Source: an uncultured Erythrobacter sp. (lineage in GTDB: Bacteria > Pseudomonadota > Alphaproteobacteria > Sphingomonadales > Sphingomonadaceae). From it: DNA of 64,000 nucleotides. Numbering within the stretch: the first letter of the stretch is position 1; the number at the start of each line of letters is the position of its first letter. The position numbers were made by a program, and so were the translations under genes. Shown piece after piece: positions 25,135-44,048 of the stretch. The notes beneath the pieces were generated by a model that was not told the DNA's origin, did no database searches, and saw nothing but the letters and a program-made list of their open reading frames with translations. The stretch is from NCBI GenBank assembly GCA_947499095.1, contig CANMMR010000002.1:186001-250000 (forward strand), written 5' to 3'.

Positions 25135-25204
25135 AAAGTGTGGGGGCAAAGTGTGGTGGACCTTCCCGGCGCTAGGCACATAGGCCGATATCCTCCCACA
25201 CTTT
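25135..25204 (+). repeat. candidate integrase arm-binding repeats, left side
   Basis: AAAGTGTGG occurs as a direct pair at 25135-25143 and 25148-25156 (13 bases apart) and inverted at 25196-25204, all between attL and the integrase start. Tyrosine integrases bind short repeated arm sites in this position. On the right side a similar pair TTTTGTGGG is found near attR. Inference from spacing and sequence only. Confidence 0.4.
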
Positions 25205-25230
25205 TTGCAAGCGGCGGAAAGGGCAGGGCA

Positions 25231-26442
25231 ATGGGCAAGCTTTCGGCAACGGCGGTTAAGGCGGCACTGGGCAAGCCGGGCACCTATCAGGACGGCGACG
25301 GCTTGTTCCTGAGGGTTGATAAGCGGGGCGGAGCTTCCTGGACCTTGCGGGTCCAACGCGACGGGAAGCGGAGCGATATCTCGCTTGGCAGCGCAAAGCT
25401 TGTGGGATTGGCGGAGGCGCGGAGCGCGGCGGTCAATGTTCGCCGGGCGGTGAAGGTCGAGGGGCGCGATATTGTCGCGGAGCGCCGCGCCAAAAAGGCG
25501 GAGGCGGTAACATTCCGCGAAGCCGCCGAACGATACTATGGCGAGAACAAGGGCGGCTGGAAGAGCAACGCCTATGCCGTGCAATGGCTATCGAGCCTAG
25601 AGCGTCACGCTTTTCCGAAATTCGGCAACCGCCCGGCGGGTGATATCGCGGCAGCGGATATCATCGCCGCGCTCGCCCCTATCTGGCAGGCATACCCAGA
25701 AACAGGCAGGCGGGTCCGCCATCGCATTTGCACTGTCCTGAACTTCGCTCACGCAAGGGGTTGGCGGGTAAGCGAAGCTCCGTCCACCACGGGAAGCCTT
25801 AAGGCCGGGAACGGATTGCCGAAGCAAACGGGCGAGCGCCAGCATCGCAAGGCCATGCCATACAAGGCGATCCCCGCGTTCATGACAGACCTTCGCGCGA
25901 AGCCTTCATTCGGGCGGCTGGCTCTTGAGTTTGTCGCGCTCACGGCGGCGCGAAGCCAAGAGGTTCGATTGGCGACTTGGGACGAATTCGACCTTGAGGA
26001 AAAGCTTTGGACGGTGCCAGCCGGGCACATGAAGCGGGGCAAGGCGCATATCGTCCCGCTGAGTGAGGCGGCAATGGCTGTGCTACGCAAGGCAGCCGCC
26101 TTGAAGCTGGCGGGGACGGAAATCGTCTTTCCCGGGGTGAGCGGCAAGGCAATGTCCGATATGACATTGCTCAAGGTGTTGCGCGATGCGGGCGAGCCGT
26201 TCCACGTGCACGGCTTCCGCTCGACCTTTACCGATTGGGCGGCGGACAAGACGAGCTTCGCTAATGCCGTGGTCGAGGCGGCGCTGGCCCACAAGACGCC
26301 GGACGCCACGCAAGCGGCCTATCGCAAGACAACCCACTTGGAAAAGCGGCGCGGCCTGATGGAAGCTTGGGGTGCCTATTGCGCGAGTGAGGCAGGCGGA
26401 AAGGTCATTGCCTTTCCGGCGGCAGGCGGGGCGGCAAAGTGA
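25231..26442 (+). CDS. int: tyrosine-type site-specific integrase
   Basis: The 403-residue integrase belongs to the P4-like/DUF4102 group. It has an N-terminal arm-binding domain (MGKLSATAVKAALGKPGTYQ, then GLFLRVDKRGGASWTLRVQR), a SAM-like core-binding domain, and the catalytic domain. The catalytic residues are visible: Arg 241 (AARSQEVRLATW), His 327 and Arg 330 (HVHGFRSTFTDWA), His 354 (LAHKTP) and Tyr 364 (AAYRKT). The ATG at 25231 is used; the longer open frame starts inside the arm repeats. It is intact, so excision and integration are possible. Confidence 0.93.
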   Translation: MGKLSATAVKAALGKPGTYQDGDGLFLRVDKRGGASWTLRVQRDGKRSDISLGSAKLVGLAEARSAAVNVRRAVKVEGRDIVAERRAKKAEAVTFREAAERYYGENKGGWKSNAYAVQWLSSLERHAFPKFGNRPAGDIAAADIIAALAPIWQAYPETGRRVRHRICTVLNFAHARGWRVSEAPSTTGSLKAGNGLPKQTGERQHRKAMPYKAIPAFMTDLRAKPSFGRLALEFVALTAARSQEVRLATWDEFDLEEKLWTVPAGHMKRGKAHIVPLSEAAMAVLRKAAALKLAGTEIVFPGVSGKAMSDMTLLKVLRDAGEPFHVHGFRSTFTDWAADKTSFANAVVEAALAHKTPDATQAAYRKTTHLEKRRGLMEAWGAYCASEAGGKVIAFPAAGGAAK

Positions 26443-26648
26443 GCCGGGCGCGGCTGTGGGTCGAGCGGATTGAGCAATTCGAGGGGACAGGGGGCGTTTT
26501 CATGCTGTCATTGCAAAGCGGAGATGAGACGCTCCGCTTCGCCATGTCGCCGCACATAGCAGGGAAACTTTGCGCGTATGGCGCGAAGGCATTGCGGGAT
26601 TGGGAGCGCGATCCGGCGCCCATAATCGCTTTTGCGAAGGGCGAGTAG
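26439..26648 (+). CDS. small hypothetical protein coupled to the integrase
   Basis: A 69-residue product starting at GTG 26439, which overlaps the integrase stop (GTGA). It has ARLWVERIEQFEGTGGVFML, SGDETLRFAMSPHIAGKLCA and LRDWERDPAPIIAFAKGE, an alpha/beta pattern without a membrane segment. I do not recognise the family. The overlapping start argues that it is translated with the integrase; a role in recombination control is only suggested by position. Confidence 0.5.
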   Translation: MSRARLWVERIEQFEGTGGVFMLSLQSGDETLRFAMSPHIAGKLCAYGAKALRDWERDPAPIIAFAKGE

Positions 26649-26792
26649 TCAGCCGAATCGACTCAATGGACGCCCGACAATCGACCTCGCCTTGGAAATT
26701 GCCTGTGCACAAGTGGCAACAAAAGATGAAGAATTTCATATGCTTAAGCGCGCAAGGGTGTGGATAACTTAAAATCACCGCCTACCCTCTTT

Positions 26793-26846
26793 CGTGCGAG
26801 TCGCCACGGCAGTATTGTTCCGCTTGTGTTCCAAAGTGCTCGCACG
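26793..26846. repeat. inverted repeat around the alpA promoter region
   Basis: CGTGCGAG (26793-26800) and CTCGCACG (26839-26846) form a perfect 8-bp inverted repeat with 38 bases between the arms, enclosing the LexA box at 26817. It could be a binding site for the AlpA-like protein or an excision factor. Function inferred. Confidence 0.35.
26817..26831 (+). promoter_or_regulatory. LexA (SOS) box upstream of alpA
   Basis: GTTC-CGCTTGT-GTTC matches the alphaproteobacterial LexA operator GTTC-N7-GTTC exactly. It ends 44 bases before the ATG of the AlpA-like gene, a position expected for repression. LexA itself is not in the window. Confidence 0.65.
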
Positions 26847-26875
26847 GTGCGGCACGGAACCGAGGGAAATACAAC

Positions 26876-27067
26876 ATGGCTGACTTAGCTGTCGTTCTGT
26901 GTAGCGTTGCCGACGCTGCGCGAAGCTTGGGAATTGGCAAAACGAAAGCTTACGAGCTGATATCCGACTGCCAACTTGAAACCGTCACCATTGGCACGCG
27001 GCGGCTGGTCAAGGTGGCCAGCATCAATCGCTTGGTCGAGCGCGCCAACATGGGCGAGGCCGCATGA
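26876..27067 (+). CDS. AlpA-like / excisionase-type DNA-binding protein
   Basis: A 63-residue helix-turn-helix protein: LCSVADAARSLGIGKTKAYE with the recognition helix, LISDCQLETVTIGTRRLVKV as the wing, and INRLVERANM. This is the MerR-like excisionase/AlpA fold. AlpA proteins activate the integrase or act as recombination directionality factors in P4-like elements. The ATG at 26876 follows GAGGG. A LexA box and an inverted repeat lie just upstream, so its expression is probably DNA-damage dependent. Confidence 0.8.
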   Translation: MADLAVVLCSVADAARSLGIGKTKAYELISDCQLETVTIGTRRLVKVASINRLVERANMGEAA

Positions 27068-40099: not shown

Positions 40100-40852
40100 A
40101 TGGCAGGTGACCTCCTCGACAATCAGGGCCGCGGCGACGTCCGTTGGTCGCTGCCGCCGATCCATCCCGAGGGGCGCAAATACGGCCTGATCGCTTTGGC
40201 GGTGAGCCTGATTTTCCTTGTCGGTCTCGACTGGGAGATCGTCGGCTGGCCGCTGCTTGCTCTCAGCGCAGGCATATTCGCCTTCTTTCGGGACCCCGAA
40301 CGCGTCGTTCCGCAAGACGATTCCGCAATTCTCTCACCGGCCGACGGTCAGGTGACCATGATTGCCGAGGTCGAGCCGCCGCGCGAGCTGGTCACCGACG
40401 ATGGCAGCGGTATCGGCGGATTGTCACCGGACACGGTGACGCGCGTCTCGATCTTCCTGTCGGTGTTCGACGTCCATATCAACCGCACGCCGATCGCAGG
40501 TACCGTGCAACGCGTCGTCTATATCCCCGGAAGTTTCGCCGATGCCAGTCTCGACAAGGCGAGCGAAGAAAACGAACGACAGCACATCCTTGTCGAGCGC
40601 AGTGACGGGACCAAGGTCGGCTTAACCCAGATCGCCGGATTGGTGGCGCGGCGGATCGTGCCGTTCGTGAAGCCCGGCGATACGCTCGGGGCCGGGCAGA
40701 GAGTCGGACTGATCCGGTTCGGCAGCCGGGTCGATGTCTATCTGCCAGCTGGTACCGGATCGGATGTGCTGCTTGGGCAGCGCGTCGTCGCGGGTGAGAC
40801 GGTTATTGCACGCCTCGGCGCGCGCAAGCTTCTGGAAGGTGTGTCGCAATGA
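40100..40852 (+). CDS. psd: phosphatidylserine decarboxylase
   Basis: Psd converts phosphatidylserine to phosphatidylethanolamine at the inner membrane. The 250-residue proenzyme is of the short alphaproteobacterial type. It has two N-terminal hydrophobic segments ([20 protein letters not shown]), [41 protein letters not shown] and the processing site [11 protein letters not shown], where Ser becomes the pyruvoyl group. Its stop overlaps the pssA start (ATGA), coupling the two consecutive pathway enzymes. Confidence 0.95.
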
Positions 40853-41676
40853 ATTTCGAACCTCGCAACGGGACCGATCAGCCCGAGGAACGCGCTCGGC
40901 TGGGGCCGAAGGCGGCGGAGGACGAACGGCCCGTGCTCGGTTCGTCCGGTCGGGGCCTGTCATTGCGGGCGATGGCGCCGAACGCGATCACCGCAGCGGC
41001 ACTCTGCTCCGGCCTGACCGGCATACGGTTTGCAATTTCCGAACAATGGGCGGCCGCCGCCGTGGCCATCATCATCGCAGGCATTCTAGACGGAATGGAT
41101 GGGCGGATCGCGCGCCTGCTGAAGGCGCAATCGCGTTTCGGGGCGGAGCTGGACAGCCTTGCCGATTCGCTGAGCTTCGGCACGGCGCCTGCGATCATCC
41201 TTTATCTCTGGTCGCTACAAACCGAACCGCGCTGGGGCTGGTTCGCCGCACTCGCACTGGCAATTTGTTGCGCGCTTCGGCTCGCACGCTTCAACGCGCA
41301 GATCGACACCGAAGACCAGCCGCACAAATCGCTCGGCTTCCTGACGGGCGTGCCTGCACCCATGGGGGCAGGACTCGCCTTCATGCCGTTCTTCGTGTGG
41401 TCGGCGACAGGGATAGACTTCTTTCGCGACCCGGCCTTCGTCGCGCCCTGGCTGTTGGCAACCGCGCTGTTGATGATTTCGAGCATGGCCACCCCGAGCT
41501 GGACTTCGCTGCGTCCGCGCCGCGGCATTCGGTTGTGGGTACTAGCCTTCGTCGGCCTGCTCTTCGCTGCGCTACTCGTCGAGCCTTGGTGGACCCTGAG
41601 CGCTATTGGGATAGGTTACCTAGCCCTGCTACCCTTGTCGCTGTTGCGGTATTCGCGCCTCAAGCGGCGCGCGTAG
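40849..41676 (+). CDS. pssA: CDP-diacylglycerol-serine O-phosphatidyltransferase
   Basis: PssA makes phosphatidylserine, the substrate of Psd. The 275-residue product has several membrane helices and the CDP-alcohol phosphatidyltransferase motif [20 protein letters not shown] followed by [12 protein letters not shown], with the D-x2-DG-x2-AR-x8-G-x3-D-x3-D pattern. It overlaps psd by 4 bases. Its 3' end overlaps a small minus-strand gene by 17 bases. Confidence 0.95.
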
Positions 41677-41902
41677 CCGGGCGGACAACCACTTCAGGCC
41701 GCGAGGGCAAGCGGCCGAAAGCCGCACCGCCTTGAGCGATCCCTGCGCGAAATGCGGGGAGTTCGGCAATGACCGACGTTCGCTTTGTTTCGCGCTGCAA
41801 CCGGCCGAAAGCGGACCACCAACGCAGTCCGCTATCGGCGAGTACGCCCATTGCGGCGACAGCCGTAAAGGTGACGAGAGCGACTAGGAACCATGCGAAC
41901 AT
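41660..41902 (-). CDS. small single-pass membrane protein under a LexA-type promoter
   Basis: An 80-residue protein with one N-terminal membrane helix (MFAWFLVALVTFTAVAAMGV) and a basic, mostly cytoplasmic or periplasmic tail (LRWWSAFGRLQRETKRTSVI). The ATG at 41902 has a good Shine-Dalgarno (AGGAG, 9 bases upstream). Its promoter (-35 TTGACT, -10 AACATT) contains a perfect GTTC-N7-GTTC LexA box. Small SOS-induced membrane proteins that block division, such as Caulobacter SidA, have this general form, but no sequence similarity was tested. It overlaps the end of pssA by 17 bases. Confidence 0.65.
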   Translation of the reverse strand: MFAWFLVALVTFTAVAAMGVLADSGLRWWSAFGRLQRETKRTSVIAELPAFRAGIAQGGAAFGRLPSRPEVVVRPATRAA

Positions 41903-42254
41903 CTCTAATTCTCCTGCCCCTTACTGTTCAAATCACTGTTGACAGGCCGGGGATAACTAGTGGAAAACCCTGACTGCCCGCCGGACGTTCCGGCGATGAG
42001 AACAATGTTCTCTTTTTGTTCTCGCTAGTCAAGTGCCTTTCGAGCCGAAGCCGCATTTTTTTGCGGCGAATGGAGGGTGGATTTATCGCTCTTCACCGGC
42101 TAAAGGCGCGCGGTTCGCAGTAGATTCGGCCATTTCGGGCGTTTCATCAGGCGGGCAAATCCACATGGAAGGCGCACATACCGGTGCCCGCCGCGGGATT
42201 TCTCCGCATTCGGGTTCCAGCTTTCCAGAGGCATAACCGGAAAGGAATTACACT
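41903..42254. other. divergent intergenic region between the small membrane gene and rpsB
   Basis: 352 bases. The left part carries the minus-strand promoter and LexA box; the right part must hold the rpsB promoter and leader. No gene is seen. An rpsB leader structure is possible, but no known S2-binding fold could be confirmed by eye. Confidence 0.45.
42004..42032 (-). promoter_or_regulatory. minus-strand promoter containing a LexA (SOS) box
   Basis: On the minus strand TTGACT (42032-42027) and AACATT (42009-42004) are 17 bases apart. Overlapping this, plus-strand GTTC-TCTTTTT-GTTC (42007-42021) matches the alphaproteobacterial LexA operator exactly, and GAGAACAATGTTCTC nearby is a 15-base palindrome. 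The operator lies between the promoter elements and would block RNA polymerase. The promoter points to the small membrane-protein gene, 102 bases from the -10 element. Confidence 0.65.
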
Positions 42255-43004
42255 ATGGCGGCTCCTACCGTCACGATGCAGCAATTGATCGAGGCCGGCG
42301 CGCATTTCGGCCACCAGACCCACCGTTGGAACCCGCGCATGAAGCCGTATATCTTCGGCGCGCGCAACGGCATCCACATCATCGACCTGTCGCAGTCCGT
42401 GCCGCTGTTCGCGCGCGCACTCGACTTCATCAGCCAGACTGCCCGTTCGGGCGGCAAGGTGCTGTTTGTCGGCACCAAGCGCCAGGCACAGGACGCGATC
42501 CGCGAAGCCGCACTCGCTTCGGGCCAGCATTTCGTCAACCACCGCTGGCTGGGCGGCATGCTCACCAACTGGAAGACAATCAGCGAGCGTATCAAGTACC
42601 TCAAAACGCTCGACGAGCGTCTTTCGGGCGACACGCAGGGCCTGACCAAGAAGGAAGTCCTCGACCTCACGCGCAAGCGCGACAAGCTCGAAATGAGCCT
42701 CGGTGGCATCCGCGACATGGGCGGCATTCCCGACGTGATGTTCGTGATCGATGCGAACATGGAAGACCTGGCCATCAAGGAGGCCAACGTTCTCGGCATC
42801 CCGGTCGTCGCCGTGCTCGACACCAATGTCGATCCGGAAGGCATCGCCTTCCCGATCCCGGGCAATGACGATGCCAGCCGCGCCATCAAGCTCTACTGCG
42901 ATGCGGTTGCCGAAGCGGCTCGCACCGGCAAGGGCGAAGGCGTGCAGGACAGCGGTGCAGACGTCGGCGCGATGGAAAATCCGCCGGAAGAAGCCGCGGC
43001 TTAA
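42255..43004 (+). CDS. rpsB: 30S ribosomal protein S2
   Basis: The 249-residue S2 begins [20 protein letters not shown], then [47 protein letters not shown] and [20 protein letters not shown], all characteristic. It is followed by tsf, the universal order. Shine-Dalgarno GGAAAGGAATTACACT precedes ATG 42255. Confidence 0.98.
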
Positions 43005-43121
43005 TGCCCAATTCGTGAGGCGGGAGCGCAATCCTCCCGTCACACAAGCGAATTATGCGCCGGGCCGCTGATACCAGCAGGCCCGGTGCCCCGCATTCAA
43101 GATACCAAGAAGGAAATCATC

Positions 43122-44048
43122 ATGGCTGCATTCACTGCTGCTGACGTAAAGGCCCTGCGCGAGAAGACCGGCGCGGGCATGATGGACGCCAAGAAGGCGC
43201 TCGAAGCCAGCAATGGCGACATTGAAGCCGCGGTCGACGCACTCCGCGCCAAGGGTCTCGCCACTGCCCAGAAGAAATCGAGCCGCACTGCGGCCGAAGG
43301 ACTCGTCGGGATCGCCGTAGAAGGCACCAAGGGCGTCGCCGTCGAAGTGAACTCGGAAACCGACTTCGTTGCCAAGAACGACCAGTTCCAGGATTTCGTG
43401 CGCAAGACCACGCAGGTCGCGCTAGGCACCGATGGCGACGATGTCGATACGCTGAAGGCCGCTGCCTATCCCGATGGCGGCACCGTGTCCGACAAGCTGA
43501 CCGATAACGTCGCCACCATCGGCGAGAACCAGCAGATCCGCCGCATCAAGACCGTCTCGGTCACCAACGGCGTGATCGTGCCTTACATGCACAATGCGGT
43601 GGCGCCCGACCTCGGCAAGATCGGCGTGCTCGTCGCGCTCGAAAGCGAAGGCGACAAGGCCAAGCTGGAAGAGCTGGGCAAGAAGCTCGGCATGCACATC
43701 GCGGCTGCTTTCCCGCAGGCGCTGACCGCCGAGGGCCTCGACGCCGAAGTGATCGAGCGCGAGCGCGCGATCGCCAAGGAAAAGGCTGCCGAAAGCGGCA
43801 AGCCCGAGAACGTCCAGGAAAAGATGGTCGAAGGCGCGGTCAACAAATACGCCAAGGAAAACGCCCTGCTCAGCCAGGTCTATGTGATCGACAACAAGAC
43901 CCCGATCGCGCAGGTCGTCGAGCAGGCGGGCAAGGATGTCGGCGCCAAGGTCGAGCTGGTGGACTATGTCCGCTTCCAGCTGGGCGAAGGCATCGAGAAG
44001 GAAGAAAGCGACTTCGCTGCAGAAGTGGCCGCTGCCGTCGGCGGCTGA
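43122..44048 (+). CDS. tsf: elongation factor Ts
   Basis: EF-Ts recharges EF-Tu with GTP. The 308-residue product has the N-terminal UBA-like domain ([39 protein letters not shown]) and [17 protein letters not shown]. The ATG at 43122 follows AAGGAAATCATC; an earlier in-frame start would add 12 residues not found in EF-Ts. It ends in a strong terminator. Confidence 0.98.

Follow-up and report, generated by a model that had tools for sequence, protein, structure and literature searches.

SidA, SosA and YneA are small SOS-induced membrane proteins that inhibit cell division, according to published accounts (PMC4211646; PMC6851548; PMC13396833). In these, SidA of Caulobacter crescentus is described as a tiny inner-membrane protein of 29 residues, placed under LexA through GTTCN7GTTC, the published alphaproteobacterial LexA motif (PMC4211646; PMC12700426; PMC7987155). 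SosA of Staphylococcus aureus, with 77 residues and one helix, has a conserved stretch directly behind the helix and is to some degree conserved at its extreme C-terminus as well; its gene keeps a fixed chromosomal place in relatives with 25-60% identity. Its tail is extracellular, its turnover is proposed to act on the C-terminus, and CtpA is proposed to remove the protein (PMC6851548). YneA of Bacillus subtilis is SOS-induced and bitopic, interacts with FtsW, carries an extracellular LysM domain and is degraded by CtpA and DdcP (PMC13396833). The same account that covers SidA describes DidA, also from C. crescentus, as a DNA-damage division inhibitor of 71 residues with a single helix which, however, is SOS-independent and controlled by DriD (PMC4211646). 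When SOS control, a small bitopic form, proteolytic removal and divergence at a fixed chromosomal place are taken together, SosA has all four, YneA the first three and SidA the first two, as far as these accounts go. SulA of Escherichia coli plays an analogous role, as a proteolytically removed SOS division brake, but is a cytosolic inhibitor of FtsZ.

Here, we describe a small gene in a window of 64,000 nucleotides (positions 186,001 to 250,000 of contig CANMMR010000002.1, assembly GCA_947499095.1) from an uncultured Erythrobacter sp.; all coordinates below are window positions unless another contig is named. The gene (41660..41902, minus strand; 80 codons plus stop) is flanked by rpsB (42255..43004, plus strand; Pfam Ribosomal_S2), its divergent neighbour and our synteny anchor, and by a convergent gene for a CDP-alcohol phosphatidyltransferase (40849..41676, plus strand; Pfam PF01066), which overlaps its 3' end by 17 nt. 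On the minus strand, going from 42032 down to 41660, the locus consists of a -35 element, TTGACT (42027..42032), a LexA box, a weak putative -10 element, AACATT (42004..42009), proposed from sequence only, a leader of about 100 nt, a Shine-Dalgarno sequence, AGGAGA (41910..41915), 7 nt before the ATG at 41902, and the open frame. The spacing between TTGACT (42032-42027) and AACATT (42009-42004) is 17 nt; by eye, AACATT is not kept in other genera. The box, GAACAAAAAGAGAAC (42007..42021, minus strand; GTTCTCTTTTTGTTC on the plus strand), is an exact match inside TTGACT-N17-AACATT, and thus a GTTCN7GTTC operator overlaps the promoter, as in the LexA regulon. The architecture is that of the original prediction, which had placed a LexA box inside a minus-strand promoter, ahead of an 80-residue frame with one N-terminal helix and a good Shine-Dalgarno sequence. 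The second half of the box lies within a near-perfect palindrome, GAGAACATTGTTCTC (41998-42012, on the gene's strand), which is partly kept in the genus and may aid LexA binding.

The frame is under purifying selection, with whole-gene dN/dS values of 0.09-0.36 in 13 close pairs that are partly non-independent; in short sub-regions, where changes are few, individual values go up to 0.52 and 1.08. From its sequence evolution, the 80-codon frame is virtually certain to be a real coding gene. Its product has no family match in Pfam, and a Pfam/NCBIfam scan of 50 members of the group gave only weak, scattered matches, with no family found in more than two members.

Within the genus, a homology search (E<=4.5e-4) found homologues in 36 of 37 genomes, the sole miss being a genome that is 75% complete (G013). 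All 36 genomes that have the gene carry an exact GAACN7GAAC 55-137 nt before its start, and in 35 of them rpsB starts no more than about 430 nt away; it is also near in two further genus members. In the remaining genome (G031, L006), gene and box are kept and rpsB lies 1.3 kb off rather than about 0.4 kb. An alignment of 38 genus members shows TTGAC and both GAAC halves to be invariant, and the leader of about 100 nt is conserved in the same alignment. Qipengyuania and Erythrobacter are the named close relatives, the former being placed by NCBI in Erythrobacteraceae, Sphingomonadales. At three loci (L074, L106 and L110), three GAACN7GAAC boxes surround the promoter.

The gene extends well beyond the genus. 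By family we mean the GTDB family, which is wider than NCBI Erythrobacteraceae and which, for the genomes searched, we take to be Sphingomonadaceae. Searching 199 genomes of the family with a profile (E<=0.01) returned 39 matches, four from the genus, 33 from other genera and two (G108, G127) that were dropped as chance, having neither box nor rpsB; the exact box and a divergent rpsB accompany all 33 other-genus matches, which adjoin rpsB. A wider profile (E<=0.05) gave matches in 105 of the 199 genomes, the weaker of them unverified individually. The promoter pattern CTTGAC-N4-6-GAACN7GAAC occurs in 131 of the 199, vs 9 for a reversed control pattern.

We then turned to the 900 nt or so that precede rpsB in 60 genomes of the family (56 genera) that had no first-profile match of their own, 56 of these genomes belonging to genera without any such match; since they were chosen among the matches listed, best rpsB matches first, the most diverged family genomes are under-sampled. 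An exact box was present in 52 of the 60 regions. In 49 it lies less than 340 nt from rpsB, and in each of these a small transmembrane ORF of 50-100 codons, recognised by an N-terminal hydrophobic helix with start codons chosen by a script that favours an early helix, follows the box. These ORFs end in Ala-Ala in 43 of 49 cases, vs 0 of 34 non-hydrophobic ORFs from the same regions. Where the box lies farther from rpsB, G164 has a transmembrane ORF ending LRAAA, G122 has a profile match beyond the scanned stretch, and in the scanned stretch of G175 no such ORF was found. Among the eight regions without an exact box, two (G149, G126) have one-mismatch boxes beside a transmembrane ORF ending RAAA, and the stretches scanned in the other six contain no transmembrane ORF. 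In one of these six, G203 (L142; G203:C4, near 218279), the promoter pattern and a transmembrane ORF occur together about 3.9 kb from rpsB, the upstream region of which has no box; this suggests that the pair moved or was split from rpsB by an insert.

In other families of the order, the box was found upstream of rpsB in 0 of 20 genomes, and these control regions yielded a transmembrane ORF in 1 of 40 tests, none ending in Ala-Ala. On the opposite strand of the family regions, used as a second control, 58 of 98 tests found a transmembrane ORF and 9 of 98 an Ala-Ala end. We think that this control is confounded by the membrane-protein gene on that strand, but by it a transmembrane ORF is, taken by itself, weak evidence. 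Against 289 genomes of the class, the A1 profile (E<=0.01) gave six matches, namely our own genome, one family member and four weak ones (two with a stop), and the A2 profile (E<=0.001) gave three, namely our own, one family member and one with a stop. Both profiles missed G072, which has box and transmembrane ORF beside rpsB, and absence outside the family is therefore weak evidence. The expectation that gene and box would be conserved upstream of rpsB in related genomes is thus confirmed, the frame being found beside rpsB across most of the sampled family genomes. The original prediction spoke of an inhibitor in Erythrobacteraceae; the gene is indeed found there, but a restriction to close relatives of Erythrobacter does not hold, as much of the GTDB family has it.

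The reading we favour, with a probability of roughly 55%, is that the gene encodes a membrane checkpoint protein that is induced by SOS, rapidly degraded and works like SidA, SosA or YneA, and by analogy with these three we regard inhibition of division as, on balance, its likeliest role. LexA bound to GTTCN7GTTC just downstream of the -35 element would keep the gene off, and RecA-driven cleavage of LexA after DNA damage would turn it on, as suggested by the conserved box. The product would be bitopic and sit in the inner membrane (N-out/C-in); its single helix would continue into the conserved juxtamembrane segment, and behind this a disordered tail rich in Arg and Pro would lie in the cytoplasm, as the charge distribution and the structure model indicate. 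By analogy with SidA and YneA, which act with FtsW, helix and juxtamembrane segment would bind a membrane component of the divisome and stall septation.

The predicted transmembrane helix (residues 2-21; 41840..41899, minus strand) is N-terminal and uncharged, with no Lys or Arg in the first 20 residues of the members listed. It is followed by the juxtamembrane motif VLADSGLRWWSAFGRLQ (residues 20-36; 41795..41845, minus strand), conserved in alignment A1 (32 rows), whose 32 aligned members have VLADSGLRWWSAFGxLR after the helix in common and a variable tail. AlphaFold2 returned one helix (residues 2-45) and a disordered tail, with a mean pLDDT of 65.6 and values of about 90 at the start. For the counts that follow, 119 distinct members were assembled from 71 obtained by homology searches and 49 from rpsB regions, minus one duplicate; left out of these and of the leader counts over 120 were L031-L035, L037 and L068, which repeat or may repeat genomes already counted, and also L036, where the frame is partial. 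Summed over these members, Lys and Arg occur once ahead of the helix and 415 times in the 20 residues behind it, and all 119 members are assigned N-out/C-in, a count that leans toward C-in because the start codons of 49 members favour an early helix. Insertion of the protein in the membrane is predicted with hardly any doubt, and the C-terminus is, judging by the charge count, quite probably cytoplasmic.

A short, predicted bitopic membrane protein is the form of the division inhibitors described above. Homology to known division inhibitors was not found, SidA being compared by description only, and a search of the whole genome with PF03846 gave no match to SulA, the control search having found the E. 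coli protein. The locus has in common with SidA its alphaproteobacterial host, the LexA motif and a very small inner-membrane product, but the protein is longer (about 80 residues vs 29). Its size, single helix, conserved post-helix stretch, conserved extreme C-terminus and fixed chromosomal place are reminiscent of SosA as described (PMC6851548). The tail, however, differs: an extracytoplasmic C-terminal tail is a property of SosA and YneA, and here the charge count places the tail in the cytoplasm in 119 of 119 members, with an ssrA-like end in place of the link to CtpA and, unlike YneA, no LysM domain. DidA is close in size and form, yet the small gene here has a LexA box.

The tail itself bears on the strongest of the alternatives, that the SOS-induced membrane protein has a target other than the divisome; it might, for example, regulate the synthesis of the envelope or of phospholipids, modulate a protease or secretion, or serve as a membrane anchor that binds nucleic acid through its Arg/Pro-rich tail. 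SOS genes without a role in division are common, and after residue 45 the sequence is 16.7% Arg, 10.2% Pro and 19% Ala, with a mean net charge of +5.2, as might suit such an anchor; the PF01066 neighbour could be read as pointing to phospholipid synthesis. However, no domain backs any such target, and the PF01066 gene, being convergent, is not an operon partner of the small gene. We consider a target outside the divisome a possibility to be kept in mind, although an unlikely one.

For the checkpoint reading, the very end of the tail matters as well. The last residue is Ala in 116 of 119 members and the second last in 112, with the third falling to 65; Ala-Ala ends 110 members (41663..41668, minus strand, in the window) and Ala-Ala-Ala 60, most often preceded by Leu-Arg, and nine end otherwise. 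The genome's own ssrA tag reads ANDNEALALAA, and in Caulobacter CdnL ends in an Ala-Ala that is a ClpXP degron and whose replacement by DD stabilises the protein (PMC11034885). Because Ala-Ala stands at a C-terminus predicted to be exposed and cytoplasmic, and because of its likeness to ssrA and CdnL, it is best read as a ClpXP degron, which by this analogy it probably is. The C-terminal (L)RAAA would then remove the protein once LexA is restored, and division would restart. Alternatively, the Ala-Ala end might reflect another requirement, such as docking, or the drift of a GC-rich, Ala-rich tail; the tail's Ala content fits this, and rpsB also ends AAA. On the other hand, the final two residues vary far less than the remainder of the tail does, and Ala-Ala ends are missing from the 34 non-transmembrane ORFs and from 40 window ORFs (0/40, under a greedy choice of frames that misses rpsB and includes some wrong frames). 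We regard an end other than a degron as a minority reading, unlikely but with some claim to attention.

The leader invites comparison with TisB- and DinQ-like membrane-active toxins, whose SOS induction would depolarise the membrane and lead to dormancy, with the leader controlling translation. LexA control, a single helix and a conserved leader of about 100 nt would all suit such a toxin, as would the Shine-Dalgarno region, which by eye is paired in some predicted folds. Fold z-scores range, however, from -0.2 to -3.5 (nine sequences, mononucleotide shuffles), the consensus is a 4-bp stem (hairpin CGCCGGAACGTCCGGCG, 41979..41995, minus strand, a weak feature), and Rfam has no match in 41000-43200; given this stem and the lack of an Rfam match, we claim no RNA regulator. 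Moreover, the gene occurs as one syntenic copy in the examined genomes rather than scattered, and its product is some 80 residues long and contains the conserved juxtamembrane motif. A toxin of this type is improbable, and we rejected a mobile one, searches of plasmid and phage sequences having given no match to the window protein.

Other elements of the leader vary between lineages. The DnaA-box-like TTWTCCACA is present in 36 of 120 leaders, with two more in reverse, vs 0 of 120 on the rpsB side, and CTGTCAACAG (41936..41945, minus strand, in the window) in 41 of 120 vs 0 of 120. The window's own leader (41900-42003) has CTGTCAACAG and the element GTTTTCCACTAGTTATCCCC (41949..41968, minus strand) but no TTWTCCACA match, only GTTTTCCACT. 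The GC skew of the window, looked at for a replication origin, shows no clear switch.

GTTCN7GTTC by itself is not a rare motif, with 3 occurrences in the window vs 1.8 expected and 75 in the whole genome vs 49 for the reversed control pattern, and the box therefore carries weight because it is conserved. In spite of this mild enrichment, it is highly improbable that the box acts on rpsB or arose by chance and that the ORF beside it is irrelevant, given its exact conservation together with the small gene and a -35 element in that gene's orientation, its absence from the other-family rpsB regions, the purifying selection on the ORF and the joint occurrence of box and ORF away from rpsB in G203. 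We rejected a box for rpsB because the -35 element and box point toward the small gene, and a chance box because of conservation and the other-family control (0/20). On sequence grounds, the small gene is very probably under LexA control.

We also read 50 loci (52 boxes) of the 75 boxes in the genome, with AT-rich spacers as the main criterion for the second 20 loci. A good many of the boxes are internal to ORFs. Other boxes are followed, at a distance of 5-78 nt, by the start of an ORF, namely that of recA, of a ribonucleotide reductase, of an S24-peptidase regulator, of a RadA-like ATPase or of a radical-SAM gene; some of these boxes are overlapped by longer ORFs in other frames. The sole LexA_DNA_bind match in the genome, its lexA, is preceded by GTTCCGCATTCGTTC. 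At L116 (G000:C3:129813-131813), box GTTCCGCAAATGTTC lies between two divergent ORFs that we take to encode a RadA-like ATPase and a patatin-like protein. At L118 (G000:C3:292367-294367), box GTTCCATTTATGTTC is 5 nt before the radical-SAM gene, a possible LexA target. The S24-peptidase regulator, which is additional to LexA, is at L121 (G000:C4:154251-156251), with a LexA box 78 nt upstream and no match to a LexA DNA-binding domain. A helicase-like ORF at L059 had no Pfam match on the part scanned and was not counted.

Within the window, an integrated element (25138-27067) contains a phage-type integrase (25138-26442) and a small HTH_17 protein (26876-27067), presumably excisionase-like; upstream of the latter are a LexA box (26817-26831) and TTATCCACA (26759-26767), which we take to be the DnaA consensus. 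Excision of this element could possibly be triggered by the SOS response.

The CTTGAC-box pattern is shared with other genes. Loci were kept for 30 of the 131 genomes with the pattern, and in eight of these (L138, L143, L146, L153, L156, L158, L162, L163) the ORF behind it is, by our assignment, UvrA-like; in others it is the small membrane gene. The UvrA-like loci suggest that this SOS promoter architecture is common within the family. In Caulobacter, uvrA is an SOS gene (PMC12700426).

The proposal of a LexA-controlled, single-helix membrane protein is well supported by conservation, and the original interpretation, which added inhibition of division, is as a whole partly supported. Among the matches listed in the open full-text literature, judged by titles and the starts of abstracts, we recognised no paper on this gene, although it may have been listed earlier, in silico, as a LexA target. 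From its sequence conservation, the small gene is, by a modest preference, the founding example of a family-wide sphingomonad SOS gene. A bolder view, which we hold to be doubtful, is that sphingomonads have a checkpoint of their own, a C-in inhibitor with an ssrA-like degron, encoded beside rpsB and diverging except in its helix and last residues, with the leaders of some lineages tied to DnaA. If this were true, the DnaA-box-like leader element of those lineages, which the window's leader does not share, would allow one promoter to read both SOS and replication-initiation status. The tail otherwise varies freely; if its almost unchanging Ala-Ala is a degron, selection for fast removal would be among the features of a checkpoint protein that vary least. 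Coupling of DNA damage to division without SulA is known in only a few species, and an SOS membrane gene that is conserved across a large family of environmental bacteria offers a candidate for it that can be tested directly in many culturable strains.
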